From Clostridiales bacterium (GTDB lineage Bacteria; Bacillota; Clostridia; Lachnospirales; Lachnospiraceae): a stretch of 64,000 nt of DNA. The position numbers and the translations under genes were made by a program. A model generated the notes under the pieces. It saw only the letters and a list, made by a program, of their open reading frames with translations, had not been told where the DNA came from and ran no database searches. Shown here piece after piece: positions 40,440-55,379 of this stretch; position 1 is the first letter of the stretch, and every line of letters begins with the position of its first letter. The stretch spans positions 1 to 64,000 of the forward strand of contig JALEHN010000104.1 in NCBI GenBank assembly GCA_022770525.1, in the 5' to 3' direction.

Positions 40440-41312
40440 ATGTTTGGGTATATTACGGTTTATAAACCGGAATTAAAGATTAAAGACTACTATAAATACA
40501 GGGCTTATTATTGCGGATTATGCCGTACATTACTTGAAGAATTCGGAGTTACCGGTCAGATTACATTATCTTATGATTTAACATTTTTTGTGGTACTTTT
40601 GTCTTCGCTGTACGAAAGTACCACAAAAACTGAAGTACATCGCTGTAAAGTGCATCCGGTTAAAAAAAGTCCGATGCTGATGAATGAAATGACCGTTTAT
40701 TCGGCGAAAATGAATATTGTGCTGTCTTATTATCATTTTGAGGATGACTGGAAAGATGACCGAAGTGCTTTGGGACTTGCAGGGATGCTGGCGCTGAAAA
40801 AAAAGGTGAAAAAAGTTGAGCGGGAGTATCCGAGACAGTGTAAAAAAATGCGAAAGTGTCTTAAAAAACTATCGGATATGGAAGTACAGAATCTTCAGAA
40901 TATTGATGAAACGGCAGGATGTTTTGGCGATATTATGGCAGAAATACTTGTCTGTAAACAGGATATATGGGAGCCCTATCTAAGAAGGATCGGTTTTTAT
41001 CTCGGAAAGTTTATATACATTATGGATGCCGTTGATGATGTGGAAAAGGATATAAAAAAGGGTAATTACAATCCGTTAAAAAGTATGTATGAATCCATGA
41101 CAAAAGAAGAATTTTTAGCTTCGGGCCGCGAAATTCTTACAATGATGATGGCAGAAGTCAGCGATGCTTTTGAAAAGCTGCCGTGCATTCAGGATGAAGA
41201 CATTCTCAGAAATATTCTGTATGCCGGTGTCTGGAATAAATTAAACTGCTTAAGCGGCAAGTGCTCTTTGGAAGAACAGTTAATCAATGAAAAGCGAAAG
41301 GATATTATATAA
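40440..41312 (+). CDS. DUF5685-family protein
   Basis: A 290-residue soluble helical protein of the DUF5685 family. The N-terminus [20 protein letters not shown] is followed by YYCGLCRTL with a CxxC pair; the body is lysine-rich and helical, with an acidic segment [20 protein letters not shown] that recalls the aspartate-rich segment of some helical all-alpha enzymes. No function is known. It lies 12 bases after the cupin gene and shares its last base with the DnaJ gene start (TAATG). The DUF5685-DnaJ-membrane protein trio looks like one transcription unit. Confidence 0.82.
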
Positions 41313-41944
41313 TGAATAATCCATACAGCGTACTGGGTGTGTCAGAGAACGCCACAGACGAAGAAGTAAAAAAAGCATACAGGGAACTGTCAAGAAAGTA
41401 TCATCCTGATTCTTATGCCAATAATCCACTGAAAGATCTGGCGGAGGACAAGTTTAAAGAGGTGCAGGAAGCTTATGATCAGATCATGAAGGAACGGAGT
41501 CAGGGCGGCAGTTACAGTTACGGATATGGTCAGGGCAGTTACAGCAGCAGAAACAGCGGCGGTTATACGACAGATGTCAAATATCAGACGGTTTGCGACT
41601 ATATTAATTTCAGACAGTTCCGCAATGCCATTGACGAGCTAAACCGTATGCCGGACAGAGACGGCCGGTGGTATTATTTAAGTGCCATAGCCAATGCGGG
41701 TCTTGGAAATAATTATCAGGCAAACAGTGACGCAAATCGTGCCGTTGCCATGGAGCCCGGAAATCAGGAATACAGGAATTTTCTGAATCAGCTTCAGTCA
41801 GGCCAGCAGCGCTATCAAAATTACGGATACCCGCGTCAGGGGCAGAGAAATTCAGATTGCGGCACAGGTAATTTCTGCTGTGATCTCTGGATTGCGGATT
41901 CCTGCTGTGAATGTATGGGAGGCGACCTTTGCAAATGCATGTAA
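41312..41944 (+). CDS. DnaJ-domain protein
   Basis: A 210-residue J-domain protein. Residues 1-68 are a J domain: [29 protein letters not shown] with the HPD motif that stimulates DnaK ATPase. A Gly/Ser/Tyr-rich linker follows, then a TPR-like helical part ([20 protein letters not shown]). The last 20 residues are Cys-rich ([20 protein letters not shown]), an unusual tail that may bind metal. It is not the general chaperone DnaJ, since it lacks the zinc and substrate domains. It overlaps both neighbours. Confidence 0.88.
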
Positions 41945-42477
41945 ATGCAAGAAAAATAGCTTTTTCAGGAATTATGTTGGCGTTATCAGTAATTTGTATT
42001 GTTCTTTCCGGTGTATTGAAATTTAATACATTATTTTTACTTGGCATTGCCGCATTCAGTGTCGGTATCGTGATCCGGGAGTTCGGTATGAAATTCGGGG
42101 CTGCTTATCTGATCGCTGCGGTTTTTCTTGGTTTTATGCTGGCGCCAAACAAGCTTTACTGTATTACGTTTGCAGCAATGGGGATTTATGTGTTTGCAGA
42201 CGAGCTGCTGTGGCCGGTGATTCAAAAACTGTCAGTAAAAATCAGAATCAATGTTTCGGTGTCCATGTGGATCGGAAAATTTGTCATTTTTAATGTGATG
42301 TATATTCCGATGCTGTTTGCATTTCCAAAGCTTTTATTTGCAGGTGATTTAAGCCGGGAGATGATCTGGATCGCGTTTTTTGCGGGACAGATTATACTTG
42401 TGATCTATGATAAGGCCTATGATTATTTCCAAAAGTACATATGGTCAAAATACAGGAAGATACTGGATGTACATTAA
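41935..42477 (+). CDS. predicted multi-pass membrane protein
   Basis: A protein of about 180 residues with five to six hydrophobic segments ([82 protein letters not shown]). The first part resembles ECF-type S-component or DUF2232-like proteins, but I do not recognise a definite family. ATG 41935 overlaps the DnaJ gene by 10 bases, with GGGAGG 13 bases upstream, so the exact start is uncertain. The J-protein next to it suggests assistance or coupling, which is inference. Confidence 0.72.
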
Positions 42478-42490
42478 TCTCCTCTGTACT

Positions 42491-42550
42491 GCATACGATA
42501 TAAAATGGATTCTTCCGTGTTACACCGTATGCTGTGCAGTGGATTTTTTT
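42491..42550 (+). terminator. terminator-like stem after membrane protein gene
   Basis: GCATACG (42491-42497) pairs with CGTATGC (42526-42532), and a run of seven T follows at 42544-42550. The stem is short and the loop long, so this is less certain than the other terminators. Confidence 0.55.
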
Positions 42551-42671
42551 ATGATATAGGAAATTGTAATTTCCTATATCATAAACGCTCCGCCAGGATG
42601 CGACCCGTGCGGAGCGAAGATGCACTTGCGTGCCCGCACGGGCGCGCAAAGAGTCACCTGGTGACTCTTTG
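42551..42671 (+). repeat. palindrome-rich intergenic repeat element
   Basis: Three inverted-repeat modules in a row. ATGATATAGGAAATT/AATTTCCTATATCAT is perfect with a 2-base centre (42551-42582). CGCTCCGC/GCGGAGCG forms the second, with CCCGTGCGG able to pair alternatively with CCGCACGGG. The last is a perfect CAAAGAGTCACC-T-GGTGACTCTTTG hairpin (42647-42671). No open reading frame is credible here. The last module recurs at 18970. It looks like a REP/MITE-like dispersed element. Confidence 0.8.
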
Positions 42672-42713
42672 TTGTGATATGGAATTGGCAAATGCTGACC
42701 GGGGGTGTATGTT

Positions 42714-44384
42714 GTGAAAAACAGCTGTAAAACGAAAACTTTAAATATGATTTGTGTCGGACTCGTGCTGATTTCATGTGTCTTGCGTTTGATTGGATAT
42801 GAGCTTGTAATTCCATATAATGGTATCCTCTGTGTTTTCTACTGCAGTGCGGCTTTTTTATGGCTTCTTCAGCTTCAGAAACGGCTGATACAGCCAAATG
42901 TGCGTAAATATCTGACACTGATGGCAAAGATGATGATTTTCTGGATCATTATACGAACGATTAAATATGATTTTACCGGTAAAAATGATGATGTGACCAG
43001 ATACATATGGTATATGTACTATATACCGCAGATTCTGATTGTTCTTTGGATGTTCTTTACTGTACTTCAAATTGGAAAACCTTATAACAGGACGTTTAGC
43101 AGAAGATGGTATCTGTTGTATATTCCTGCGTTGCTTATTATCATCAGTGTTTTGACAAATGATTTTCATCAGATGGCCTTTTGTTTTCCGTATGGTCTGA
43201 AAAGCTGGAATGACTTTGGTTATTCGTATGGTTTTATATATTTTTTGGCGTTGCTGTGGGATGTGATCTTTTGTATTGCGGTACTTCTTATAGCATTTAT
43301 TAAGTGCAGTATCAGAGATACAAAAAAGAATATTTGGATGCCGATGCTTCCGCTTTTTGCTGCCGTGATCTATGGTGTGATGTTTTTTATTAAGCCTGAC
43401 AGTATTTTATTAAAGGCAATTAAAGTACCGGAGTTATTTTGCTTTGTGTTTGCAGCATTTATGGAGAGCCTGATTCTTGCGCATCTGATTCCGTCAAATG
43501 ATAATTACGGCGATTTCTGGAATGTATCTTCTATCGGTGCCGGTATTATGGATATGAACGGAAATATATGCTATAAATCTGAAAAAAGCATGTCGGTCGG
43601 GTCTGATGAAATATATAAAGCGCTTGTCGGACCTGTACTGATTGAAGATGGAAATATTGTATTGAACAGCCGGAAAGTGGATGGCGGTATTGGATACTGG
43701 ATTAAGGATATTTCTCAGATTAACTGTATGAATAAGGAACTGGAAGAAATAGGCGATGTCCTTGTAAAAGAAAATGAACTTCTTGATGCAAAAAATAAAA
43801 TCATGGCCCAGAGGGCAGCGATTGAAGAAAAAAACAAGCTGTATGATGATATTGCTGTCAGCAACAAAAAGCAGCTGAATAAACTGGATAAGCTGCTTCA
43901 ATCGATCGAAGCGGAGCCGGAGTTTTTTGAACAGAAAATTAAATATGCATGTATATTAAATGCCTATATCAAAAGACATTCCAATCTTTTACTTCTAAAA
44001 CATCAAAGCACAATGATCAGCAGCGATGAGCTGAAGCTGGCGATTAATGAATCTGTTGAATATGTCCGACTTTACGGAGCTGCTGCTTATGCGGAATATG
44101 TCGGTACATGTAAGATTCCGGCCTCGCATATTTTATTGTTTTATGAATTATTCGAAGAGGTATTAGAATGTGCTTTGCCGGATACTGATGCTGTGTTTAT
44201 AAGCGTAAGCTTTTTGAAAGAAGAAATCAATATGCGTATGGAACTTAATGCACCGCGCAGATGTATTTCTCAAAATTACCGGGTAAACAGTATTTCCCGG
44301 ATGCATGGTTCTTTAAGTATTGAAAAAGAGGATCATACGGAGTATGTTATTTTGATGCTGCCGGCGGGAGGTGAACATTCATGA
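42714..44384 (+). CDS. membrane sensor protein, probable pseudo-histidine kinase
   Basis: A 556-residue protein with an N-terminal block of about eight membrane helices (residues 10-260) of the histidine-kinase 7TM type, a short PAS-like region (IGAGIMDMNGNICYKSEKS), a coiled-coil (about residues 345-400) and a C-terminal region that resembles a kinase domain but lacks a clear HisKA His motif, N-box Asn or glycine boxes. I infer a signalling partner or pseudokinase that senses at the membrane. GTG 42714 follows GGGGGTG. It overlaps the real kinase gene by 4 bases (ATGA), so the two are coupled. Confidence 0.78.
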   Translation: MKNSCKTKTLNMICVGLVLISCVLRLIGYELVIPYNGILCVFYCSAAFLWLLQLQKRLIQPNVRKYLTLMAKMMIFWIIIRTIKYDFTGKNDDVTRYIWYMYYIPQILIVLWMFFTVLQIGKPYNRTFSRRWYLLYIPALLIIISVLTNDFHQMAFCFPYGLKSWNDFGYSYGFIYFLALLWDVIFCIAVLLIAFIKCSIRDTKKNIWMPMLPLFAAVIYGVMFFIKPDSILLKAIKVPELFCFVFAAFMESLILAHLIPSNDNYGDFWNVSSIGAGIMDMNGNICYKSEKSMSVGSDEIYKALVGPVLIEDGNIVLNSRKVDGGIGYWIKDISQINCMNKELEEIGDVLVKENELLDAKNKIMAQRAAIEEKNKLYDDIAVSNKKQLNKLDKLLQSIEAEPEFFEQKIKYACILNAYIKRHSNLLLLKHQSTMISSDELKLAINESVEYVRLYGAAAYAEYVGTCKIPASHILLFYELFEEVLECALPDTDAVFISVSFLKEEINMRMELNAPRRCISQNYRVNSISRMHGSLSIEKEDHTEYVILMLPAGGEHS

Positions 44385-45709
44385 GCGCCTATTGTGAACT
44401 TTCAAATATTTTTTATGCTGTCACAGGATTTCATGCGGTTCTTAATACGCTGTTTGCAGTGTTTATGTTTGTGTTGATCTGTTATTTACATATGCATAAG
44501 AATATTCTGGTTTATACAGGAATACTTACAGTCATATCAGGTTTTATGATGACAGGTGCCAATGCTGTCAGCTTGCGTGAGGTGAAGCATTTAGAAATAC
44601 ATTTTTTCATGTATGATGTGTTTGCCTGTATGCCGTGGTTTTTATTTGAAGCACTGCTTTCTTTGTGTTCAGCCTTCTGCATTGTTTTGTGGCTGCATAT
44701 CAACCGGGAAAAAAAGAAAATGTTAAAACCGGGGGCAATGAAGGAAACACTGGATGTCTTGCCGGATGGTATCTGCTTTTCAAGAGAAGACGGGCAGCCG
44801 CTTCTTGTAAATATCCGGATGAACAGGCTTTGCAGTGAATTAATCGGCTCTGAGATGCTTAATACCCAGGTATTCTGGGAAAAACTGAATCGGAAAAAAA
44901 TAAGCGGAAGTAACCGGATTCTTCGTATGCAGCCATCGGTTGTTGTGCAGCTTAAAGATGATAGTATATGGGATTTTCAGAGAAAAACATTGAAAGTTGA
45001 CGATTATAAAGTGGAGGAAATAATTGCTTACGATGTGACAACGCAATACAGTCTCAGTATGGAACTGGAGTCAAGAAATCAAAGACTTGTTAAAATGAAT
45101 GATGCGCTTATTGAGTTTAACCACGAGGTAGGACGTATTACAAAGGAAAAAGAAATATTAAATGCTAAAATAAAAGTCCATGATGATGTCGGCAGGTCTC
45201 TTATTGCTTTCAGACTTTATCTGACACAAAAAGGAGATCGGGAAAGCAGGGAAAGACTGCTTGACATGTGGCGTTATACGATAAAAATGCTTAAAAATGA
45301 AGCGGAAAACGAACGAAATGGCGATGACTGGGAAATGCTTTGTCAGGCGGCACAGGAGATGTCTGTGATCATAGAAAGAGACGGCGATTTACCGGACGAT
45401 GCCGTCATCAGTTCGATTTTAATAACGGTAGCGCATGAATGTCTCACAAATATGTTAAAGCACGCAGGCGGCAGACATTTATATTTAAATCTGCGTTATG
45501 ATGGCGGTCTTATCACTGCGGAATTTAGAAATGACGGAAGATCACCGGATCAAACGATTACTGAGACCGGTGGCCTGAAAAACTTAAGATATACAGTGGA
45601 GACAGCCGGCGGTAAAATGACTGTTGAAAGTCTGCCTGTATTTCTGCTTCGCATAGAGTTTCAAATGGGAGATGGGTTAAATGGCAAAGATCAAGGTGAT
45701 GATCGTTGA
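44381..45709 (+). CDS. membrane sensor histidine kinase
   Basis: A 442-residue kinase with four to five N-terminal membrane helices (residues 12-110), a PAS-like segment (LDVLPDGICFSREDGQPLLV), a coiled-coil, a HisKA_3-like phosphoacceptor VHDDVGRSL (His near residue 267) and a HATPase domain (AHECLTNMLKHAG as N-box, GGLKNLRYTV as G-box). It should phosphorylate the response regulator encoded next, whose gene it overlaps by 29 bases. Signal unknown. Shared layout with the preceding protein suggests they arose by duplication and may form a hetero-complex. Confidence 0.88.
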   Translation: MSAYCELSNIFYAVTGFHAVLNTLFAVFMFVLICYLHMHKNILVYTGILTVISGFMMTGANAVSLREVKHLEIHFFMYDVFACMPWFLFEALLSLCSAFCIVLWLHINREKKKMLKPGAMKETLDVLPDGICFSREDGQPLLVNIRMNRLCSELIGSEMLNTQVFWEKLNRKKISGSNRILRMQPSVVVQLKDDSIWDFQRKTLKVDDYKVEEIIAYDVTTQYSLSMELESRNQRLVKMNDALIEFNHEVGRITKEKEILNAKIKVHDDVGRSLIAFRLYLTQKGDRESRERLLDMWRYTIKMLKNEAENERNGDDWEMLCQAAQEMSVIIERDGDLPDDAVISSILITVAHECLTNMLKHAGGRHLYLNLRYDGGLITAEFRNDGRSPDQTITETGGLKNLRYTVETAGGKMTVESLPVFLLRIEFQMGDGLNGKDQGDDR

Positions 45710-46307
45710 TGATCAGTTTATGTCACGGAAGCTTTTTGAAATGTATCTGGAGTCTTCAAAGAAGTATGAAGTGGAATTTGCGCTGGAGTCCGCCGCATTT
45801 GCGGATACTTTTGTGAAAACACGGCCGGTGGAGCTTGTTCTGATGGATATATTAATGCATGACGGTTCCAACGGACTGGAAGCTGCTGAAAAAATAAAAA
45901 AGATCCGGCCTGATATTAAAATTGTGGCTGTGACCTCCATGCCTGAAGCGTCATGGATTAAAAGAGCAAGAGATATAGGTATTGAGAGTTTTTGGTATAA
46001 AGAGACTTCAAAAGATACGATTCTTGATGTGATGGACAGAACGATGGCAGGCGAGTCTGTTTATCCGGACAGCGCGCCAAAGGTGAAACTTGGTTTGTCA
46101 AGCAGTGAAGAATTTACAGAAAGAGAGCTTGAGGTACTGAGAATTATGACGATGGGTGTATCCAATGCTGTTATTGCTAAAAAACTGGGAATTACGGAAA
46201 ATACTGTAAAAAATCATATACGCCACATGATGGAAAAAACCGGATGTGAGAGCCGCACGGAACTTGCCATAAAAGCCAGAGTCAGCGGTATAGTGATTCC
46301 GGATTGA
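45681..46307 (+). CDS. LuxR/NarL-family response regulator
   Basis: A DNA-binding response regulator of 208 residues. Residues 1-120 form a receiver (acidic pair in IVDDQ, phospho-acceptor D56 in VLMDILMHDGS, Lys in FWYKETS). Residues 145-205 are a LuxR-type helix-turn-helix (FTERELEVLRIMTMGVSN, KKLGITENTVKNHIRHMM). It is activated by the kinase in the previous gene. No obvious target site can be named; the zinc-ribbon gene at 46494 is the closest downstream candidate. A terminator follows. Confidence 0.92.
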   Translation: MAKIKVMIVDDQFMSRKLFEMYLESSKKYEVEFALESAAFADTFVKTRPVELVLMDILMHDGSNGLEAAEKIKKIRPDIKIVAVTSMPEASWIKRARDIGIESFWYKETSKDTILDVMDRTMAGESVYPDSAPKVKLGLSSSEEFTERELEVLRIMTMGVSNAVIAKKLGITENTVKNHIRHMMEKTGCESRTELAIKARVSGIVIPD

Positions 46308-46315
46308 GTATTAAG

Positions 46316-46359
46316 ATGCAGGGAGATATAAGTACAAAGCTTAAATCTCCCTGCATTTT
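46316..46359 (+). terminator. terminator after response regulator
   Basis: Perfect 12-base stem ATGCAGGGAGAT/ATCTCCCTGCAT with a 17-base loop, followed by a short T tract (TTT). It closes the sensor-regulator operon. Confidence 0.85.
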
Positions 46360-46493
46360 GTGTGATAATGACGAATAAATGGCGAAATAGTACTTTTGTG
46401 TCATGCAAAATTGTCAAATTGTCCATATAATTAATTGTGAAAATATTAGTTTTCAGTAATGTGAAATCAATGATTATGTAAGGAGGCATATGT

Positions 46494-48731
46494 ATGGGAT
46501 TTTGTAAAGTTTGCGGAGCACAGATCCAGGATGGTATTAAGTTTTGTACAGAATGCGGAAGTCCTGTGGCAGCAGCACCTGATATTCAAGGTTCGCCGTC
46601 AATGTCAGGGACATCACAGCAAGTAGCACAGAATCAGAATTTTAACAGCCAGAGCAGCGGACAGCAAAAACAGCCGGAGAATACGGCCGATTATAAGAAT
46701 GACGGCTGGGGTGTTTCGATGGGTGACGAGACGATGGTGCTTAACGAGGGCTGGAAAACACAGATGGAAAGCGGCAAAAAAGTCGGCGGTGACAGATGGG
46801 GGCAGACAAATGGCGGACAGTCCGCGCCTCGGGGACGGAAGCGTTCGGCACAGAACAATACAGCGCAGTCCAATACAGCACAGACAAACACAACACAGCA
46901 GACAGGCTTTGATACGTCAAAGGGCAGTCAGGAACCGGCAGGAAGTGCGAGTCCATTTGGATATGGCAGCCCATCAGGCGCGCAGGGAAGCAGTCCAAAT
47001 CAGTTTGGATACGGCAGTCCTTCAGACAGTCAGGGGCAGACTGGAAGCAATCCACAGACCGGTGCGCAAAATCAGTTCGGGTACGGCAGTCCACAAACCG
47101 GTGCGCAAAACCAGTTCGGGTACGGCAGTCCACAAACCGGTGCGCAAAATCAGTTCGGCTATGGCAATGCATCAGGTGGGCAGGAAAGTGCACAAAATCA
47201 GTTCGGGTACGGTAATCAGACAGGTTCACAAAATCAGTTTGGATATGGCGCTCAGCCGGGAAGCCAGGGCCAGTTTGGCGCAGGCGGACAAGGTGCTGCG
47301 CAGCCCGGCGGTATGCCTCAGGGTAATGCAGCGCAGCCAAAAGCACCTAAGGAGAAAAAAGCAGGCAATAAAAAAGTATTTCTGTTTGCAGGTATCGGTG
47401 TTGCGGCAGTAGCGGTGATTGTGGCGGTTATTCTTATTGTCTTAAAATTTGCAGGCGGCGGTAAAGATGATCCGAATATCGGTGTATACAAAGGAGTGTC
47501 CTGTGTTGTAGAAAGTGTTGAAGTCGGCGCTGAAAATGAGTGGATCGAACTTAAGTCAGGCAGCAAAGCGACACTTCATCTGATGGATGAGGAATTTGGT
47601 GCCAAATGGTCTCTTGACGGAGAAAAGCTTACGGTCACACAGAGCGGCGATAAATATGAAGGCACATTAAAAGACGGTACGATAATTATAGATTTTGAAG
47701 GCATGCTCTATACCTTCTGTAAAGAAGGAACAGAACCGGCAGGTGATAAAGCTGCTGAAACCGAAAGCAAGGAACAGGCGGCATCAGACGCCGGTTACTG
47801 GACACTTCTGCGGTGTGATTCTGACAGCGAAGAGAGCGCGTTGAGTGAGGAGGATGTCAAAGGTTTTAAGGAGCTTGGCCTTGACGCTTTTATGGTTTTA
47901 AATGAAGACGGTACAGGTGCGATTTCATTATTCGGCGATTCAACGAAATTGACATGGGAATCCGAAAAAATTGTCATCGAAGGTGAAAACTTCAGTTATA
48001 CAGTAAGTGACGGACAGCTTTCGTTTGATTTTTACGGCTCAGTGATGGTGTTTGTCAGAGGTGAAGGTGAAGCACCTGAAATTGACTGGTCCTTAAATGA
48101 AGGCGATGATATCGATGGCGGCGGTGATATCGATGGCGGCGGTGATAATGTCGGTTCTGTTGATGGAACTGATAACAGTTCTGATTATGACGGGCCTTAT
48201 GCATTCTGGTATGGCGACTGGTATGGCTGGTGGGTTGTCACCTCAGGCTGGGGAGCGTACAGTGAAGATACAGGAGTCTACGATGATGTTTGTGCGAGAA
48301 TAACAGTTAATGATGATGCTACAGGAACGATACAGCTTTGGAACGCGGATAATGCTGCCGGAGAGTATTTTTGCAGTGTGGATGTGTCTTTTGGCGCCGG
48401 AACAACGCAAGACGGCTGCATGATGTCAGAAAGCGGCTATTATGAAGATGCGAATGTCGCACATGCGGATTGGATCGTAGATCCGGGTGCATCAATCGTG
48501 AGCGATTTTGATCAGATGATCTGGATCAACGGCACTTATACAAGCCCTGATAACAGTGACAATGAGTATAGTTATTATATCTTTCTAAGACCATGGGGAA
48601 TGGAATGGGAAGATGTCAGAACGGCCGATACAACGGATATGCCTTTTGATGATATGATGCCTGCAGGATATGATAGCTGGTATTTACCTTTGATTCAGAA
48701 CGGAAGCAGGATGCCGGATTCTTTCTATTAA
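46494..48731 (+). CDS. zinc-ribbon, QFGYG-repeat, single-pass membrane protein
   Basis: A 745-residue protein. Residues 1-25 are a zinc ribbon (CKVCGAQIQDGIKFCTECG), then a Gln/Asn/Gly/Ser-rich region with repeated NQFGYG (about residues 150-270), a Lys-rich stretch, and one membrane helix (about residues 296-322, VFLFAGIGVAAVAVIVAVIL). The outer part (residues 325-745) holds two lipocalin-like repeats (GTIIIDFEGMLYTFC and LSFDFYGSVMVFV) and an acidic Gly-rich spacer. The zinc ribbon would be cytoplasmic. AAGGAGG precedes the start. It heads the zinc-ribbon/SPFH block. Confidence 0.82.
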   Translation: MGFCKVCGAQIQDGIKFCTECGSPVAAAPDIQGSPSMSGTSQQVAQNQNFNSQSSGQQKQPENTADYKNDGWGVSMGDETMVLNEGWKTQMESGKKVGGDRWGQTNGGQSAPRGRKRSAQNNTAQSNTAQTNTTQQTGFDTSKGSQEPAGSASPFGYGSPSGAQGSSPNQFGYGSPSDSQGQTGSNPQTGAQNQFGYGSPQTGAQNQFGYGSPQTGAQNQFGYGNASGGQESAQNQFGYGNQTGSQNQFGYGAQPGSQGQFGAGGQGAAQPGGMPQGNAAQPKAPKEKKAGNKKVFLFAGIGVAAVAVIVAVILIVLKFAGGGKDDPNIGVYKGVSCVVESVEVGAENEWIELKSGSKATLHLMDEEFGAKWSLDGEKLTVTQSGDKYEGTLKDGTIIIDFEGMLYTFCKEGTEPAGDKAAETESKEQAASDAGYWTLLRCDSDSEESALSEEDVKGFKELGLDAFMVLNEDGTGAISLFGDSTKLTWESEKIVIEGENFSYTVSDGQLSFDFYGSVMVFVRGEGEAPEIDWSLNEGDDIDGGGDIDGGGDNVGSVDGTDNSSDYDGPYAFWYGDWYGWWVVTSGWGAYSEDTGVYDDVCARITVNDDATGTIQLWNADNAAGEYFCSVDVSFGAGTTQDGCMMSESGYYEDANVAHADWIVDPGASIVSDFDQMIWINGTYTSPDNSDNEYSYYIFLRPWGMEWEDVRTADTTDMPFDDMMPAGYDSWYLPLIQNGSRMPDSFY
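47052..47168 (+). repeat. three tandem 39-bp repeats encoding QNQFGYGSPQTGA units
   Basis: Three consecutive 39-base units starting at 47052, 47091 and 47130, nearly identical except for the end of the third. More diverged copies lie on both sides (46950-47290). They are in frame and expand the low-complexity linker of the zinc-ribbon membrane protein. Confidence 0.9.
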
Positions 48732-48762
48732 AAAACAGCAGAGCAAAAGGAGGTAAAGTGAA

Positions 48763-49152
48763 TTGAAGAGTATTGCAGTGAGTATACGCAACCGTGTGTT
48801 CTCGGAAAGTGTTCTGCTGATGCTGAAACAAACAGGCGCTTTACAACCGATTCAGATTCCGACACAGCCGCCGGAAATGATTATCATCGAGTGCCGGGCT
48901 GCAAAACCGGATATACTGCTGATGGATATTACGCCGGTATCCTGTGATACAGCACTGGAGGGGCGGCTTATGATGATCGATCAGCTGAAAAAAGAATTAC
49001 CTGACTGCAGATATGCCTTGCTGTGTGATGAAACAGCATATCCGGAAGCAGCGCGCAATGTGATGCGGGCAAAACAGAGAGGGCAGATAGATGCGTTTTT
49101 TTATGCATCTGTGACAGCAGAATATCTTACGGCGTCTTTGGAGGCGCTTTGA
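48763..49152 (+). CDS. receiver-like single-domain protein
   Basis: A 129-residue protein resembling a CheY-type receiver: MKSIAVSIRNRVFSESVLLM, and ILLMDITPVS with an Asp at the acceptor position (D55). The N-terminal acidic pair that binds magnesium is missing (IRNRVF instead of a DD pair), so phosphorylation may not occur. There is no output domain. The start is TTG 48763, 9 bases after AGGAGG. It lies between the zinc-ribbon and SPFH genes and may be a scaffold or protein-interaction module there. Confidence 0.7.
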   Translation: MKSIAVSIRNRVFSESVLLMLKQTGALQPIQIPTQPPEMIIIECRAAKPDILLMDITPVSCDTALEGRLMMIDQLKKELPDCRYALLCDETAYPEAARNVMRAKQRGQIDAFFYASVTAEYLTASLEAL

Positions 49153-49174
49153 AAAATTGAAGGGAGAATGATAT

Positions 49175-50602
49175 ATGGGACTTATAAAAGCTGGAATGGG
49201 CGCCGTTGGAGGAATGATGGCCGATCAGTGGCGTGAATTTTTCTATTGTGAGGCCATGGATAAAGACGTCATGGTAAAAAAAGGATCAAAACGTACAACG
49301 GGGCGTTCTTCAAATACAAAAGGCAATGATAATATTATTTCTAATGGATCGGGTATTGCCGTTGCAGACGGACAGTGTATGATGATCGTTGAGCAGGGGA
49401 AGATTGTTGAAGTATGTGCCGAACCGGGGGAATTCATCTATGACACATCAACAGAACCGAGTATTTTTACGGGAGATTTAGGCGACAGTATACGGGAAAC
49501 ATTCCGTATGATCGGCAAACGATTTGCTTACGGCGGAGATACCGGGAAAGACCAGCGCGTCTATTATTTTAATACAAAAGAATTGATCGATAATAAATTC
49601 GGAACTCCGAATCCGATTCCGTTTCGTGTGGTTGACCGCAATATCGGCCTTGATATCGATGTGTCTGTGCGCTGTTCAGGTGTTTACTCTTATAGAATTT
49701 CCAATCCGCTTTTGTTTTATTCAAATGTCTGCGGAAATGTTGAATACGAATACAACCGTTTGGAAATTGAAAGTCAGTTAAAGACTGAATTTATCAGTGC
49801 CCTTCAGCCTGCTTTTGCTAAAATATCCGAGCTGCAGATACGTCCGAGTGCGCTGCCGGGACATGCGGAAGAACTGTCTGAGGCAATGAATGAGGCTCTT
49901 ACGAAAAAGTGGGGCGAACTGCGCGGACTTTCTGTTGTGTCTATTGCGATGAATCCGATAACGCTGCCGGAAGAAGATGCCCAGCTGATTAAGCAGGCAC
50001 AGCGTACGGCTATTATGCGTGATCCTACAATGGCTGCAGCAACACTTGTCGGTGCTCAGTCGGATGCAATGAAGTCTGCGGCAAATAATCCAAACGGCGC
50101 GATGATGGGCTTTATGGGTATGGGCATGGCCCAGCAGGCAGGCGGTATGAATGCCCAGAATCTTTTTGCAATGGGACAGCAGCAGGCAATGCAGCAACAG
50201 GCAGCCCAGCAGCATGCGTCACAACAGCAGACAGCCCCATCGCCAAACAGTTGGAAATGTGCATGCGGTACGGTAGTTAATGGTAAATTCTGTCCGGAGT
50301 GCGGCGCCAAAAAGCCTGAACCGGTTCAGGAGGGCGCATGGAAATGTATGAAGTGCGGTACGATGGCTACCGGAAAGTTCTGCCCGGAATGCGGCGCTAA
50401 AAAACCGGAAGAAGATGGCTGGACCTGCACTTGCGGAACATTGAACAAGGGTAAATTCTGTATGAACTGCGGTGCTAAAAAGCCGGCAGGCGTACCGGTG
50501 TATCGCTGCGATAAATGTGGATGGGAACCAAAAGATCCGGCACATCCGCCGAAATTCTGTCCGAACTGCGGAGACCCGTTTAATGAAAATGATATCAGAT
50601 GA
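49175..50602 (+). CDS. SPFH-domain protein with four C-terminal zinc ribbons (YdjI-like)
   Basis: A 475-residue protein. Residues 1-270 are an SPFH/band-7-like domain of the type annotated as virion core protein-like in bacteria, homologous in layout to Bacillus YdjI. A Met/Gln/Ala-rich linker follows (MGQQQAMQQQ), then four zinc ribbons at residues 360-475 (WKCACGTVVNGKFCPECG, WKCMKCGTMATGKFCPECG, WTCTCGTLNKGKFCMNCG, YRCDKCGW with CPNCG). SPFH proteins assemble at membranes; no transmembrane helix is present here. GAAGGGAGAATG precedes ATG 49175. It probably acts with the next three genes in envelope stress handling. Confidence 0.88.
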   Translation: MGLIKAGMGAVGGMMADQWREFFYCEAMDKDVMVKKGSKRTTGRSSNTKGNDNIISNGSGIAVADGQCMMIVEQGKIVEVCAEPGEFIYDTSTEPSIFTGDLGDSIRETFRMIGKRFAYGGDTGKDQRVYYFNTKELIDNKFGTPNPIPFRVVDRNIGLDIDVSVRCSGVYSYRISNPLLFYSNVCGNVEYEYNRLEIESQLKTEFISALQPAFAKISELQIRPSALPGHAEELSEAMNEALTKKWGELRGLSVVSIAMNPITLPEEDAQLIKQAQRTAIMRDPTMAAATLVGAQSDAMKSAANNPNGAMMGFMGMGMAQQAGGMNAQNLFAMGQQQAMQQQAAQQHASQQQTAPSPNSWKCACGTVVNGKFCPECGAKKPEPVQEGAWKCMKCGTMATGKFCPECGAKKPEEDGWTCTCGTLNKGKFCMNCGAKKPAGVPVYRCDKCGWEPKDPAHPPKFCPNCGDPFNENDIR

Positions 50603-50662
50603 TAAAATGCAAAGTCGAGTAATACAGGTATGTATGCCTTAAATCATTAAAGGAGTGTTTTT

Positions 50663-51823
50663 ATGGGATTATTTGATAAGAAGTTTTGCGATGTATGCGG
50701 AGAAAAGATTGGTATGCTGGGCAATCGTAAGCTGGATGATGGAAATCTCTGCAAGGATTGTGCTAAAAAACTTTCACCGTGGTTTGAGGAACGCCGCCAC
50801 AGTACGGTGGATTCCATTAAAGAACAGCTTGCCTACAGGGAGGCAAATAAGGAAAAGGTTCGTGCTTTTCAGATAACAAGAGAATTTGCAACTTCAAATT
50901 ATCATGTATTTATTGATGACCAGAAAAGGCAGTTTGCCATTGCAGCGCGTATGAATGTCGAAACAAATCCGGATATTCTTGATCTTTCTCAGATCGTAAG
51001 CTGCCGTATGGAAGTAGAGCAGGATAGGGATGAAGAAAAATATCGTGATAATGAAGGCAATATGAAAAGCTATAATCCGCCGAGATATAAATATGAGTAT
51101 GATTACTGGATGAAAATTACAGTAAATTCGCCATGGTTTGATGATATGGATTTTAAAATGAATTCTTTTTCTATTGAGGAACGTGAACGCGGAAAAATAA
51201 TGGAGATGGAAAATCTGGGAAATCAAATCACGGCCGCTTTAACCGGAATGGGTTATAGCCCTCAGGGCGGTATGATGAATAACGGTATGTATGGTCAGCA
51301 GAGTATGCATAGCAGCATGTACGGTCAGCAGGGTATGCAGGGTGGCGGTATGTATGGTCAGCAGAATATGCAGGGCAGTGGTATGTACGGTCAGCAGGGT
51401 ATGCAGGGTGGCATGTACGGTCAGCATGGTGTGCAGAACAATGGTATGTACGGTCAGCAGGGTATGCAGGGTGGCATGTACGGTCAGCAGGGCATGCAGA
51501 ACAATGGCATGTACGGTCAGCAGGGCATGCAGAACAATGGCATGTACGGTCAGCAGGGCATGGCAAATAACGGTATGTACGGTCAGCAGGGCATGCAGGG
51601 TAGCGGCATGTACGGTCAGCAGGGCATGCAGGGTAGCGGTATGTACAGTCAGCAGGGCATGCAGGGTAGCGGTATGTACAGTCAGCAGGACATGCAAAAT
51701 AACGGTATGTACGGCCAGCAGAGTATGCAGGGCAGCGGTGACGGTGCATGGGTTTGTCCGGGATGCGGGTCAACAAATACAACAAAATTCTGTCAGCAGT
51801 GCGGTCAACAGCGTCCGTTTTAA
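50663..51823 (+). CDS. DUF4428 protein with GMYGQQ repeats and terminal zinc ribbon
   Basis: A 386-residue protein. Residues 8-45 form a DUF4428 zinc module (FCDVCGEKIG, LCKDCAKKL). Residues 75-185 are a beta-rich domain, possibly PH-like (NYHVFIDDQKRQFAIAARMN). Residues 205-360 are about 14 copies of a 10-11 residue repeat GMYGQQGMQ(G/N)(G/S/N). The C-terminus is a zinc ribbon (WVCPGCGSTN, FCQQCGQQRP). No membrane helix is seen. AAAGGAG precedes ATG 50663. The pattern of ribbon, repeat and ribbon links it to its neighbours. Function unknown. Confidence 0.86.
   Translation: MGLFDKKFCDVCGEKIGMLGNRKLDDGNLCKDCAKKLSPWFEERRHSTVDSIKEQLAYREANKEKVRAFQITREFATSNYHVFIDDQKRQFAIAARMNVETNPDILDLSQIVSCRMEVEQDRDEEKYRDNEGNMKSYNPPRYKYEYDYWMKITVNSPWFDDMDFKMNSFSIEERERGKIMEMENLGNQITAALTGMGYSPQGGMMNNGMYGQQSMHSSMYGQQGMQGGGMYGQQNMQGSGMYGQQGMQGGMYGQHGVQNNGMYGQQGMQGGMYGQQGMQNNGMYGQQGMQNNGMYGQQGMANNGMYGQQGMQGSGMYGQQGMQGSGMYSQQGMQGSGMYSQQDMQNNGMYGQQSMQGSGDGAWVCPGCGSTNTTKFCQQCGQQRPF
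51284..51738 (+). repeat. about 14 tandem 30-33-bp repeats encoding GMYGQQ units
   Basis: In-frame units of 30 or 33 bases coding for GMYGQQGMQ followed by GG, GS, NN or G. They are near-identical at DNA level in places (CATGTACGGTCAGCAGGGCA recurs), which favours copy-number change by slippage. Confidence 0.92.
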
Positions 51824-51920
51824 CATTTATGGCAAAGAAGGCGGTTTTGCTGCTTTAGCAGTAAGATGAATACACAGAATTTGATGTTAACAAAAAATGT
51901 CTGAAGGGAGTTGAGATCCG

Positions 51921-53015
51921 ATGTCAGACCTGAGGCAATATAAATGCCCTGCCTGCGGCGGGGCAATGGAGTTTGACAGTACTATACAGAAAATGAAATG
52001 CCCGTACTGTGATACAGTCATGGATGTTCAGGAATATCAGAATATGCAGGATGCAGTATATCAAAATAACGCAGGTTCGGCGGGCAGCGACCAATGGCAG
52101 GCTATGGGCGGCGGCGCATGGCAGTCCGGCGAGACAGACGGCATGTGTATCTATACATGTGAATCCTGCGGCGGAGAGATTATTGCAGATGTCAGTACAG
52201 GGGCTACGACCTGTCCGTTTTGCGGCAACAGAATCGTTATGACCGGTCAGTTTTCAGGCGATTTAAGACCGGATTATATTATACCGTTTAAACTGGACAA
52301 AAATGCCGCAAAAAAAGCCTATCACCGGCATTTATCAGGTAAAAAGTTTATGCCTGCCATTTTTAAAAAGGAAAACCACATTGATGAAATCAAAGGACTA
52401 TATGTGCCTTTCTGGCTCTTTGATGCCGATACAGAAGCGAATATTATGTATGAGGCAGAAAGGCTCAGAACGTGGAGATCCGGTGATACAGAGTATACGG
52501 AACATGAAATTTATAATGTACAGCGTGCGGGAAGAATAGGATTTTCGTATTTACCTGAGGATTGTTCCAGGAAAATGGATGATACATTGATGGAATCCAT
52601 TGAACCTTATAATTTTGCCGAGGCAGTTCCGTTTAGTACGGCATATCTTGCCGGTTATATGGCAGACCGTTATGATGTGGCCATGGAAGAACGTATGGAA
52701 CGGGCAAAGCAGCGTATTAAAAGAAGTACAATTGATGCATTTAAAAATACAGTTCAGGGGTATCATTCAGTCAAGGATGTCAACAGCTCGGTCAGTCTTT
52801 ATAATGTCCGTTATTTGTATGCGTTGTATCCGGTATGGATATTAAATACAACATGGAAAGGGAAAAAATATACCTTTGCCATGAACGGCCAGACCGGAAA
52901 AATGGTCGGTGACCTGCCGTTTGATAAAAATGCATTTAATAGATTTGTAATCACATGGGGCGTTGGGTTCGGAGCGATTGTTTATGCGATTATGTGGTTA
53001 TTTATGCTGCTATAG
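51921..53015 (+). CDS. TFIIB-type zinc-ribbon membrane protein (YdjG-like)
   Basis: A 364-residue protein with two N-terminal zinc ribbons (YKCPACGGAMEF with MKCPYCDTV at residues 8-30; YTCESCGGEIIADV with TTCPFCGN at about 76-100), a long conserved middle domain (YIIPFKLDKNAAKKAYHRHL, GLYVPFWLFDADTEAN), and one C-terminal membrane helix (FGAIVYAIMWLFMLL). The layout matches Bacillus YdjG. In Bacillus YdjG and YdjH act with PspA in membrane stress; no PspA is found in this window. GAAGGGAG precedes ATG 51921. It precedes the TPM gene by 13 bases. Confidence 0.88.
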   Translation: MSDLRQYKCPACGGAMEFDSTIQKMKCPYCDTVMDVQEYQNMQDAVYQNNAGSAGSDQWQAMGGGAWQSGETDGMCIYTCESCGGEIIADVSTGATTCPFCGNRIVMTGQFSGDLRPDYIIPFKLDKNAAKKAYHRHLSGKKFMPAIFKKENHIDEIKGLYVPFWLFDADTEANIMYEAERLRTWRSGDTEYTEHEIYNVQRAGRIGFSYLPEDCSRKMDDTLMESIEPYNFAEAVPFSTAYLAGYMADRYDVAMEERMERAKQRIKRSTIDAFKNTVQGYHSVKDVNSSVSLYNVRYLYALYPVWILNTTWKGKKYTFAMNGQTGKMVGDLPFDKNAFNRFVITWGVGFGAIVYAIMWLFMLL

Positions 53016-53028
53016 GGAGGGATGGTTT

Positions 53029-53835
53029 ATGAAAAAACGAATTTGTTCTGCGCTGTTAACCATTCTTCTGGCAATGCTTATTGTCTTGCCGGTATCAGCC
53101 GGTGAGGGCGAACATCCGCCCCGTCTTGTTGACGGTGCCGGACTTCTCAGTGCTTCGCAGGAAAGTGAACTGGAAGATAAGCTTGATGAGATCAGCACAC
53201 GTCAGGCGTGTGATGTTGTCATTGTCACTGTGGACAGTCTGGATGGTAAAACAGCAATGGCGTATGCTGATGATTATTATGATTATAACGGATATGGCTT
53301 TGGCAGCGAAAGAGACGGTATCTTATTACTGGTCAGTATGGAATCTCGGGACTGGTGGATCAGTACATGCGGTTATGGAATCACAGCATTTACTGACGCA
53401 GGCATGGAATATATTGCAGATCAGTTTTTATCGGATTTAAGTGACGGAAAGTATAAAAAAGCATTTGAAAAATTTGCGGATCTCTGTGATGATTTTATAA
53501 CCGAAGCAAATAATGGCGAGCCATATGACGTGGGCCACATGCCAAAAGGAAAATTACCGTTATATTGGATTGTTGTTGATCTGGTCATAGGTCTTTTTAT
53601 ATCCTACTGTATCGCTTCAAATAAAAAAAGCAAGCTCAGATCAGTGGTCAGCAAGTACAATGCTGCGGATTATGTAAGGCCGGGCAGTCTTGTGCTGACC
53701 GCAAACTGGGATCAGATGGTCAATCGACTGGTGACAACAAGAGTCATTCCGAGAGAAAGAGAAAGCTCCGGCGGAAGCAGCACCCATACCAGTTCATCAG
53801 GTTCGACACATGGAGGTACAGGCGGTAAATTTTAA
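53029..53835 (+). CDS. TPM-domain membrane protein (YdjH/YgcG-like)
   Basis: A 268-residue exported membrane protein. Residues 1-23 are a signal peptide (LLTILLAMLIVLPVSAGEGE). Residues 35-160 form a TPM domain (VDGAGLLSASQESELEDKLD, ACDVVIVTVDSLDG, GILLLVSMESRDWWIST) facing the outside, then one membrane helix (LPLYWIVVDLVIGLFISYC, residues 174-195) and a cytoplasmic tail ending in Gly/Ser-rich GGTGGKF. TPM domains occur in photosystem II repair protein Psb32 and in Bacillus YdjH. ATG 53029 follows GGGAGGG. It belongs to the SPFH/zinc-ribbon unit. Confidence 0.88.
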   Translation: MKKRICSALLTILLAMLIVLPVSAGEGEHPPRLVDGAGLLSASQESELEDKLDEISTRQACDVVIVTVDSLDGKTAMAYADDYYDYNGYGFGSERDGILLLVSMESRDWWISTCGYGITAFTDAGMEYIADQFLSDLSDGKYKKAFEKFADLCDDFITEANNGEPYDVGHMPKGKLPLYWIVVDLVIGLFISYCIASNKKSKLRSVVSKYNAADYVRPGSLVLTANWDQMVNRLVTTRVIPRERESSGGSSTHTSSSGSTHGGTGGKF

Positions 53836-53861
53836 TCTGTTGGAAGGAAGGAGGATTTCAA

Positions 53862-55379
53862 TTGAAAAAATTTATTTCGTTATTACTCATTGCGGCAATG
53901 ACTATGGCTCTTGTATCCTGCGGCGGCAATGAAAATGCGCTGGCAGGTAAGAAAAAAAGTATTTCGGAAAGTACTGAAACAAAAGAAGCGGTGGAAACAG
54001 TTAAAGAGACCGAAGAAAAGGATTTTTCTGACCGTGAATGTGCAAGCGTTGAACTTTTTAAGGTATATTATCCGAAAGACTGGTTTTATGATGAGGAATC
54101 AACCAGTGACAGCTCTGATTACTGCAGAGTCGTTCTTTATATCGGCGGAGAAGATTATTATTCTTCAGAAACCTGGATTTATATTATGGCTGAAAATGAA
54201 GACGGCGCAGCGTTCAGACATACGCTTTCACAGACAGATGTTGTCCTGGAAAGCTATGCCGACGGAAGCATACTGACAATGCCATGCGGCGGTGTTATGT
54301 TTGCCGAGGCACCGATTCAGGAGGATGATACGCTGTATTATATTTATCGTCATGAACCGTCTCAGACGACATACTCCATCAATATCGGCGGTGATTATGA
54401 AAATGAGGCTGTTAAAGAAGTTCTGGAAGGTATCGAGCTGACACTTAGCGATAACGGCGGTGTTGATTCACCTTGGCCATGGGATGGCGTACCGTTTGCG
54501 CCTGTTGTTTCACAGCAGACGGTAGGTTCTTATACAATTGTTCCTGAAGTCATTGCGTTTGAAGAATCTTTGTATGTGATGGATATTATGGAGCATCAGT
54601 TTGCGGTCATCGGAAATAAAATGTATCATCTTTTTGAAGATACATTGACGGAATATGATTATTCCGGAACTGATCTTAAAAAAGTCACATCAACTCAGTA
54701 TGATAAAGAATATGAGTATTTGTCTTATGATAACAGCGGAATGCTATATCTTTCACAGGGTATTTATGAAGGTGATGCTGTCAAAGATCATGCAATTGTC
54801 GGAAGTACAGTCACACATGATTTAGTAATGCACCCTTCGGGTGAATGGGGCATTACATCCTGGGTTTCAAGTGATGTTATGAAAGTTACAAATAATAATG
54901 GCAGTTTTACAGAAGAACCGTGGGTGCTGACCAATTTAAATATCGATGAAACAAGACAGGGTGATTTTGCAATGATCGATGATATAGCAATATCTGATTC
55001 ACATATTATTGTTGCTGGTCTTGTTGCAGGCAGCAGTTCAACGAAAAAAATCGGCGTGTATGATTATGACGGGAACAAACAGCTGCTTCTCGGCGGCGAA
55101 ACTTATGAGGATCCTGACTGTCTAGGCGCAGTTACAGGTATCGTGGAGACTGCCAATGGATATGTTGCTGCTGACGGCAATATGCGAAAATTGTACTTCT
55201 GGGAGAAAGACGGTACGTTTATCGGTACTGTAGACTCAGATGACATTTTTGGTACGGACTATCCGTGGTTTGAAGATATGCAGCTTCTTGATGACGGTTC
55301 AATACTTTTGATGTTGACACAGGAAAGATTTGATGAGTCGGCAGACGAGTTGCTTGTTTTCAGACTGACAGGATTTTAA
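53862..55379 (+). CDS. predicted lipoprotein with propeller-like C-terminal region
   Basis: A 505-residue lipoprotein: the lipobox MALVSC places the lipid-modified Cys at residue 20. A charged Glu/Lys/Thr spacer (residues 30-55) leads to a first domain (residues 60-200, YPKDWFYDEE) like those for protein-surface interactions, and a second region with repeating beta blades (FAVIGNKMYHLFEDTL, KIGVYDYDGNKQLLL, LYFWEKDGTFIG) suggestive of a beta-propeller. The start is TTG 53862, after GGAAGGAGG. It is the last gene of the zinc-ribbon/SPFH/TPM block and may be its extracytoplasmic sensor or partner. Function unknown. Confidence 0.78.
   Translation: MKKFISLLLIAAMTMALVSCGGNENALAGKKKSISESTETKEAVETVKETEEKDFSDRECASVELFKVYYPKDWFYDEESTSDSSDYCRVVLYIGGEDYYSSETWIYIMAENEDGAAFRHTLSQTDVVLESYADGSILTMPCGGVMFAEAPIQEDDTLYYIYRHEPSQTTYSINIGGDYENEAVKEVLEGIELTLSDNGGVDSPWPWDGVPFAPVVSQQTVGSYTIVPEVIAFEESLYVMDIMEHQFAVIGNKMYHLFEDTLTEYDYSGTDLKKVTSTQYDKEYEYLSYDNSGMLYLSQGIYEGDAVKDHAIVGSTVTHDLVMHPSGEWGITSWVSSDVMKVTNNNGSFTEEPWVLTNLNIDETRQGDFAMIDDIAISDSHIIVAGLVAGSSSTKKIGVYDYDGNKQLLLGGETYEDPDCLGAVTGIVETANGYVAADGNMRKLYFWEKDGTFIGTVDSDDIFGTDYPWFEDMQLLDDGSILLMLTQERFDESADELLVFRLTGF

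Follow-up and report, generated by a model that had tools for sequence, protein, structure and literature searches.

The window is the whole stretch of DNA analysed here, 64,000 nucleotides from a gut-type Clostridia genome (3.2-Mb assembly, 91% complete). Within it are seven adjacent open reading frames (A to G), all on the + strand and separated by gaps of about 13-97 bp. They lie at the coordinates given in an earlier note made from the sequence alone, and its labels for them (SPFH, DUF4428, YdjG, TPM and lipoprotein, plus a receiver-like protein) are borne out by homology. However, that note recognised only part of the unit. Three more + strand genes, encoding a 7TM sensor, a histidine kinase and a LuxR-type regulator, end 187 bp upstream of A. 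With these same-strand genes ahead of A, the unit described here therefore runs from 42705 to 55379 and includes a two-component system that the note had omitted. The start of the TPM gene is probably 53029 rather than 52963. The features are as follows.

42705-44384, + strand: histidine-kinase-like 7TM pseudokinase (HisKA_7TM, 5e-7; nine-locus alignment)
44381-45709, + strand: partner histidine kinase with three predicted TM segments (nine-locus alignment; TM prediction)
45681-46307, + strand: LuxR-type response regulator (Response_reg and GerE, Pfam)
46389-46411, + strand: 23-bp candidate regulator site, AGTACTTTTGTGTCATGCAAAAT, overlapping the -35 position (whole-genome scan)
46426-46431, + strand: -10 element TATAAT, 14 nt downstream of the motif
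46494-48731, + strand: protein A, with a cytoplasmic zinc ribbon, QFGYG linker, one TM segment and a lipocalin-like ectodomain (Pfam, comparison, TM prediction)
48763-49152, + strand: protein B, pseudo-receiver (hhalign; recurrence in related islands)
49175-50602, + strand: protein C, SPFH (Band_7_1) with four zinc ribbons (Pfam, alignment, tree)
50663-51823, + strand: protein D, with DUF4428, a beta-rich domain, a GMYGQQ repeat linker and a terminal zinc ribbon (Pfam, comparison, TM prediction, AlphaFold)
51921-53015, + strand: protein E, YdjG homologue with two N-terminal zinc ribbons and a C-terminal TM segment (Pfam, comparison, TM prediction)
53029-53835, + strand: protein F, TPM-domain membrane protein, YdjH-like (PF04536, 2e-34)
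53862-55379, + strand: protein G, lipoprotein with a C-terminal beta-propeller (AlphaFold pLDDT 83; Foldseek to NHL and BamB propellers)

An NCBIfam profile search gave no match above cut-off and Rfam found no RNA element. Just upstream, at 40440-42477, is a compact group that is apparently unrelated to the unit; its products are a cysteine-containing protein of unknown family, a DnaJ-like protein with a J-domain and a Cys-rich tail, and a multi-TM protein. Between this group and the 7TM gene, a perfect inverted repeat (TATGATATAGGAAATT-GT-AATTTCCTATATCATA) at about 42549-42584 precedes two or three further short inverted repeats. These could be an operator or stacked terminators.

The two-component system has an unusual composition. 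Across an alignment of nine loci the partner kinase retains its H-, N- and G-boxes. In the 7TM protein the N- and G-boxes have been lost, and the position of the phospho-acceptor His is occupied by Tyr, Ser or another residue. The hallmarks of a two-component pair, the His, N- and G-boxes and a receiver-HTH regulator, are thus found in the partner kinase and the LuxR-type protein and not in the 7TM protein. The latter is most plausibly a pseudokinase whose sensor is used by the active partner kinase. The earlier note had offered lipoprotein G as the outer sensor of the block, but the linked pseudokinase/kinase pair is a better candidate. In related islands, too, the two-component genes adjoin. 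Protein B is a degenerate receiver that aligns by hhalign to the receivers of neighbouring regulators (E 5.5e-7), with no Pfam family match. Since the acidic pair and the Lys are missing, it is classed as a pseudo-receiver. It is kept in four other loci, and in related islands it sits beside the regulator or the SPFH gene. Some related islands also encode a membrane protein with a large extracytoplasmic part fused to a LuxR-type HTH (L065:5652-7253, L069:7002-8729 and L072:13311-14894). This protein is absent from the window and is possibly a one-component membrane regulator.

One clue to what the regulator might control is the 23-bp motif, which sits between the regulator gene and A at a promoter with no canonical -35. 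When scanned with up to three mismatches (<=3), it has one match in the 3.2-Mb window genome, and the reversed control has zero. The nearest relative, sister genome G179, has two copies by the same scan, both inside its island and none elsewhere. They differ from the window 23-mer solely at the two Y positions, and at both the -10 begins 13 nt past the motif. One copy is behind the regulator and the other precedes a gene group running into the SPFH genes. The upstream regions of the window and of the related island L065 share no exact 11-mer, so the motif does not reflect general conservation. Looser scans of more distant islands gave no convincing site, and the motif is known from the two closest genomes only. 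It is a candidate binding site of the LuxR-type regulator.

The core of the unit is formed by C, E and F. Protein C matches Band_7_1 (2e-20) and a double zinc ribbon in Pfam, and four ribbons can be recognised in its tail. Window-type SPFH proteins are usually 400-500 aa long with two to four ribbons, often ending YRCDKCGWEPEDP..PPKFCPECGDPF, whereas PspA-linked SPFH proteins have about 315-355 aa and one terminal ribbon. In a tree that did not include Bacillus YdjI itself, the PspA-linked (YdjI-like) proteins form one fully supported group, set apart by very long branches from the multi-ribbon type, and protein C falls outside that group. Protein E is a true YdjG homologue: against the YdjG encoded in a pspA-ydjG-TPM-SPFH operon it shows 30% identity (E 2e-62). 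Its zinc-ribbon Pfam matches are sub-threshold. Protein F carries the TPM domain that had been assigned to it.

The remaining products are the low-complexity zinc proteins and the lipoprotein. Protein A is a zinc-ribbon membrane protein as described before (Zn_Ribbon_1, 3e-7, Pfam; six QFGYG repeats; one TM segment near residues 292-310). A full orthologue with the same ribbon and TM segment and an ectodomain 46% identical is found in locus L180, with a Pro/Ala/Gln-rich linker in place of QFGYG. In this pair the low complexity of the linker is kept and its sequence is not. Free-standing lipoproteins encoded in related islands match the ectodomain of A, and Pfam assigns one of them to Lipocalin_4. 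Protein D combines DUF4428 (6e-18, Pfam) with a Q/G/Y/M-rich repeat tail. Many DUF4428 proteins have the same plan of DUF4428, a beta-rich domain (AlphaFold pLDDT 86), a linker that is 70-85% Q/G/Y/M/N and a ribbon resembling those of the SPFH tails; others have an ordinary linker. A Foldseek search of PDB with the DUF4428 protein returned nothing significant. A PH-like fold (p62 PH, E 0.05-0.07) is at most hinted at, and lipid binding is therefore not claimed. The addition of such low-complexity zinc proteins to the block, which the earlier note had pointed out, recurs in related islands. Protein G has no Pfam family match; its C-terminal half is the predicted propeller.

Is PspA really missing? 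The earlier note had seen none in the window and proposed looking beyond it. PF04012 has no match in the whole assembly (91% complete), and PspC also has no match in the genome. Among 299 genomes of the family, 136 encode a window-type multi-ribbon SPFH (defined by E<1e-40), and the module is thus not peculiar to this genome. PspA is present in 14 of these 136 and in 76 of the 163 that lack the multi-ribbon SPFH (odds ratio 0.13, P 2.5e-12), leaving 122 that have this SPFH without PspA. The association is reversed for the weakly matching, classical one-ribbon YdjI-like SPFH, a class that sits near the search threshold: it occurs in 69 genomes, 52 of them with PspA (odds ratio 15, P 2e-19). Both P values overstate independence, since the genomes are related to one another. 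The near-complete single-contig genomes G215 and G256 have the island and no PspA. In a phylum sample, Band_7_1 proteins occur in genomes both with and without PspA.

The neighbourhoods agree with these counts. No PspA lies in any of the multi-ribbon SPFH neighbourhoods fetched, nor in 80 loci from genome contigs, of which 61 have YdjG and 55 have TPM. The two-component system, the DUF4428 protein and A are found in a subset of loci and are scattered on the SPFH tree, with six changes for the two-component system, so these extras have been gained, lost or exchanged. Together, the avoidance of PspA, the separation of the clades and the PspA-free neighbourhoods indicate that a PspA-free SPFH-YdjG-TPM core is a widespread Clostridia module. 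The description of the block as a PspA-less relative of ydjGHI is well supported, with homologous YdjG and TPM proteins and a distinct SPFH clade.

Several other arrangements were seen in other loci. A small Cys-rich protein (FQYQIRCESCGKIWKSK...CPICGHLVCDNCFM) with no Pfam match is encoded close upstream of SPFH at L065:7254-7799, L069:8913-9314, L131:9555-9920 and L132:4310-4666. Other multi-ribbon SPFH genes (L043:7944-8933, L044:6877-8789) are next to genes for non-YdjG membrane proteins with C-terminal zinc ribbons, suggesting alternative SPFH partners. In another SPFH-YdjG-TPM clade (L046:3058-9323 and L048) the core is preceded by genes for a histidine kinase, for a large TM protein and for an ABC ATPase with its permease, which is a second regulated island type.

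How might the unit work? We somewhat favour a membrane scaffold of the YdjGHI type that works without PspA, acts in envelope stress and is controlled by its own two-component switch. An envelope signal would be sensed by the 7TM pseudokinase and its partner kinase and passed by phosphorylation to the LuxR-type regulator, which would then bind the 23-bp site overlapping the -35 position and turn on the downstream genes. By analogy with YdjI in Bacillus, the YdjG and TPM proteins would be the membrane base on which the SPFH protein oligomerises. The multi-ribbon SPFH tails, together with the ribbons that the DUF4428 protein and A carry on flexible tethers, may be docking modules that gather partners, a step for which the classical version uses recruitment of PspA. 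The outer face would be reached through protein A and the propeller lipoprotein, and the whole would protect against envelope stress. Counting against this scaffold are the 14 genomes with PspA elsewhere, the restriction of the extras to some loci and that of the motif to two genomes. A bolder version, which we think improbable, is that the PspA effector of this Psp branch has been replaced by a condensate-like network of multi-ribbon SPFH oligomers and the prion-like Q/G/Y/M-rich zinc-ribbon proteins (DUF4428 and A). In this version the network would assemble membrane repair or domain bodies under control of the 7TM pseudokinase two-component system.

Stress protection is the likeliest purpose of the block, and its main rival is surface-protein assembly. 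On that view the block would not respond to stress but would help to assemble surface proteins and membrane complexes or control their quality; SPFH and TPM would be the chaperones of this platform, and the regulator would switch on surface lipoproteins together with their assembly factors. The BamB-like propeller fold of G would suit this, as would the proposal that SPFH and TPM domains are chaperone-like assembly factors (PMC11237479), and lipoproteins and surface proteins abound in related islands, one example being the SpaA-like protein that lies behind the motif in L065. However, the SPFH-YdjG-TPM core mostly occurs without these lipoproteins, and we rate the platform as unlikely. The block might instead be an ordinary Psp system served by a PspA encoded elsewhere, given that 14 of the 136 genomes do have one and that about 9% of the window assembly is incomplete. 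This we consider very improbable: the other 122 genomes are without PspA, G215 and G256 among them, and no fetched locus has a linked copy.

Other purposes have even less in their favour. Some SNIPE defence nucleases carry DUF4428 at their N-terminus (PMC13190303), which might point to an anti-phage system. However, PADLOC gave no meaningful match for nine proteins of the unit (the sole match was a spurious Cas12f ribbon, E 0.008), so defence is rated low, and the block has no nuclease or toxin-like gene; a defence role seems highly improbable. The many zinc ribbons across four proteins could be taken as a sign of zinc storage or zinc sensing. But they are ordinary structural CxxC types attached to SPFH and membrane domains, and the block has no recognisable transporter or regulator of zinc; this explanation, too, seems highly improbable.

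The scaffold reading matters because the Bacillus YdjGHI proteins are understood chiefly as PspA recruiters. Homologous YdjG and TPM proteins occur with a different SPFH in more than 100 genomes, nearly all without PspA, and therefore should have a PspA-independent job, one that gut Clostridia in culture make testable. For the signal that induces the island, the promoter motif and the pseudokinase/kinase pair offer a direct point of access.

In Bacillus, membrane localisation of YdjI requires YdjG and YdjH, and PspA requires all three (PMC8581546). Like the window unit, the pspA-ydjGHI operon of Bacillus subtilis groups genes for homologous YdjG and TPM proteins with one for an SPFH/Band-7 protein that bears a C-terminal zinc ribbon (PMC8581546, PMC9239133, PMC11237479). 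However, the window unit has no pspA, its order is SPFH-YdjG-TPM, its SPFH belongs to another clade and has four ribbons where that of Bacillus has one, and it adds the linked two-component system, the DUF4428 protein, protein A and the lipoprotein. The Bacillus order, pspA-ydjG-TPM-SPFH, is found closer by in L112, whose genome (G029) belongs to the window's family, and in L113, whose genome (G042) belongs to its order. Both share with the window a YdjG about 30% identical, a TPM domain and a Band_7_1 domain, but their SPFH is only 21-23% identical to C and has one ribbon, and pspA is adjacent. PspA-free Psp variants built on PspC/Toastrack/LiaF with two-component systems were described by Ravi et al. 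(2024), who treat the band-7/YdjG/TPM set as a PspA partner (PMC11237479). These are similar to the window in joining an envelope module to a two-component system without PspA, but their core is PspC/Toastrack (PMC11237479), whereas that of the window, in a genome without PspC, is SPFH-YdjG-TPM. A literature search, with subscription papers and preprints outside its reach, found no account of a PspA-free SPFH-YdjG-TPM module. Such a core appears to be a branch, hitherto undescribed, of a known stress system.
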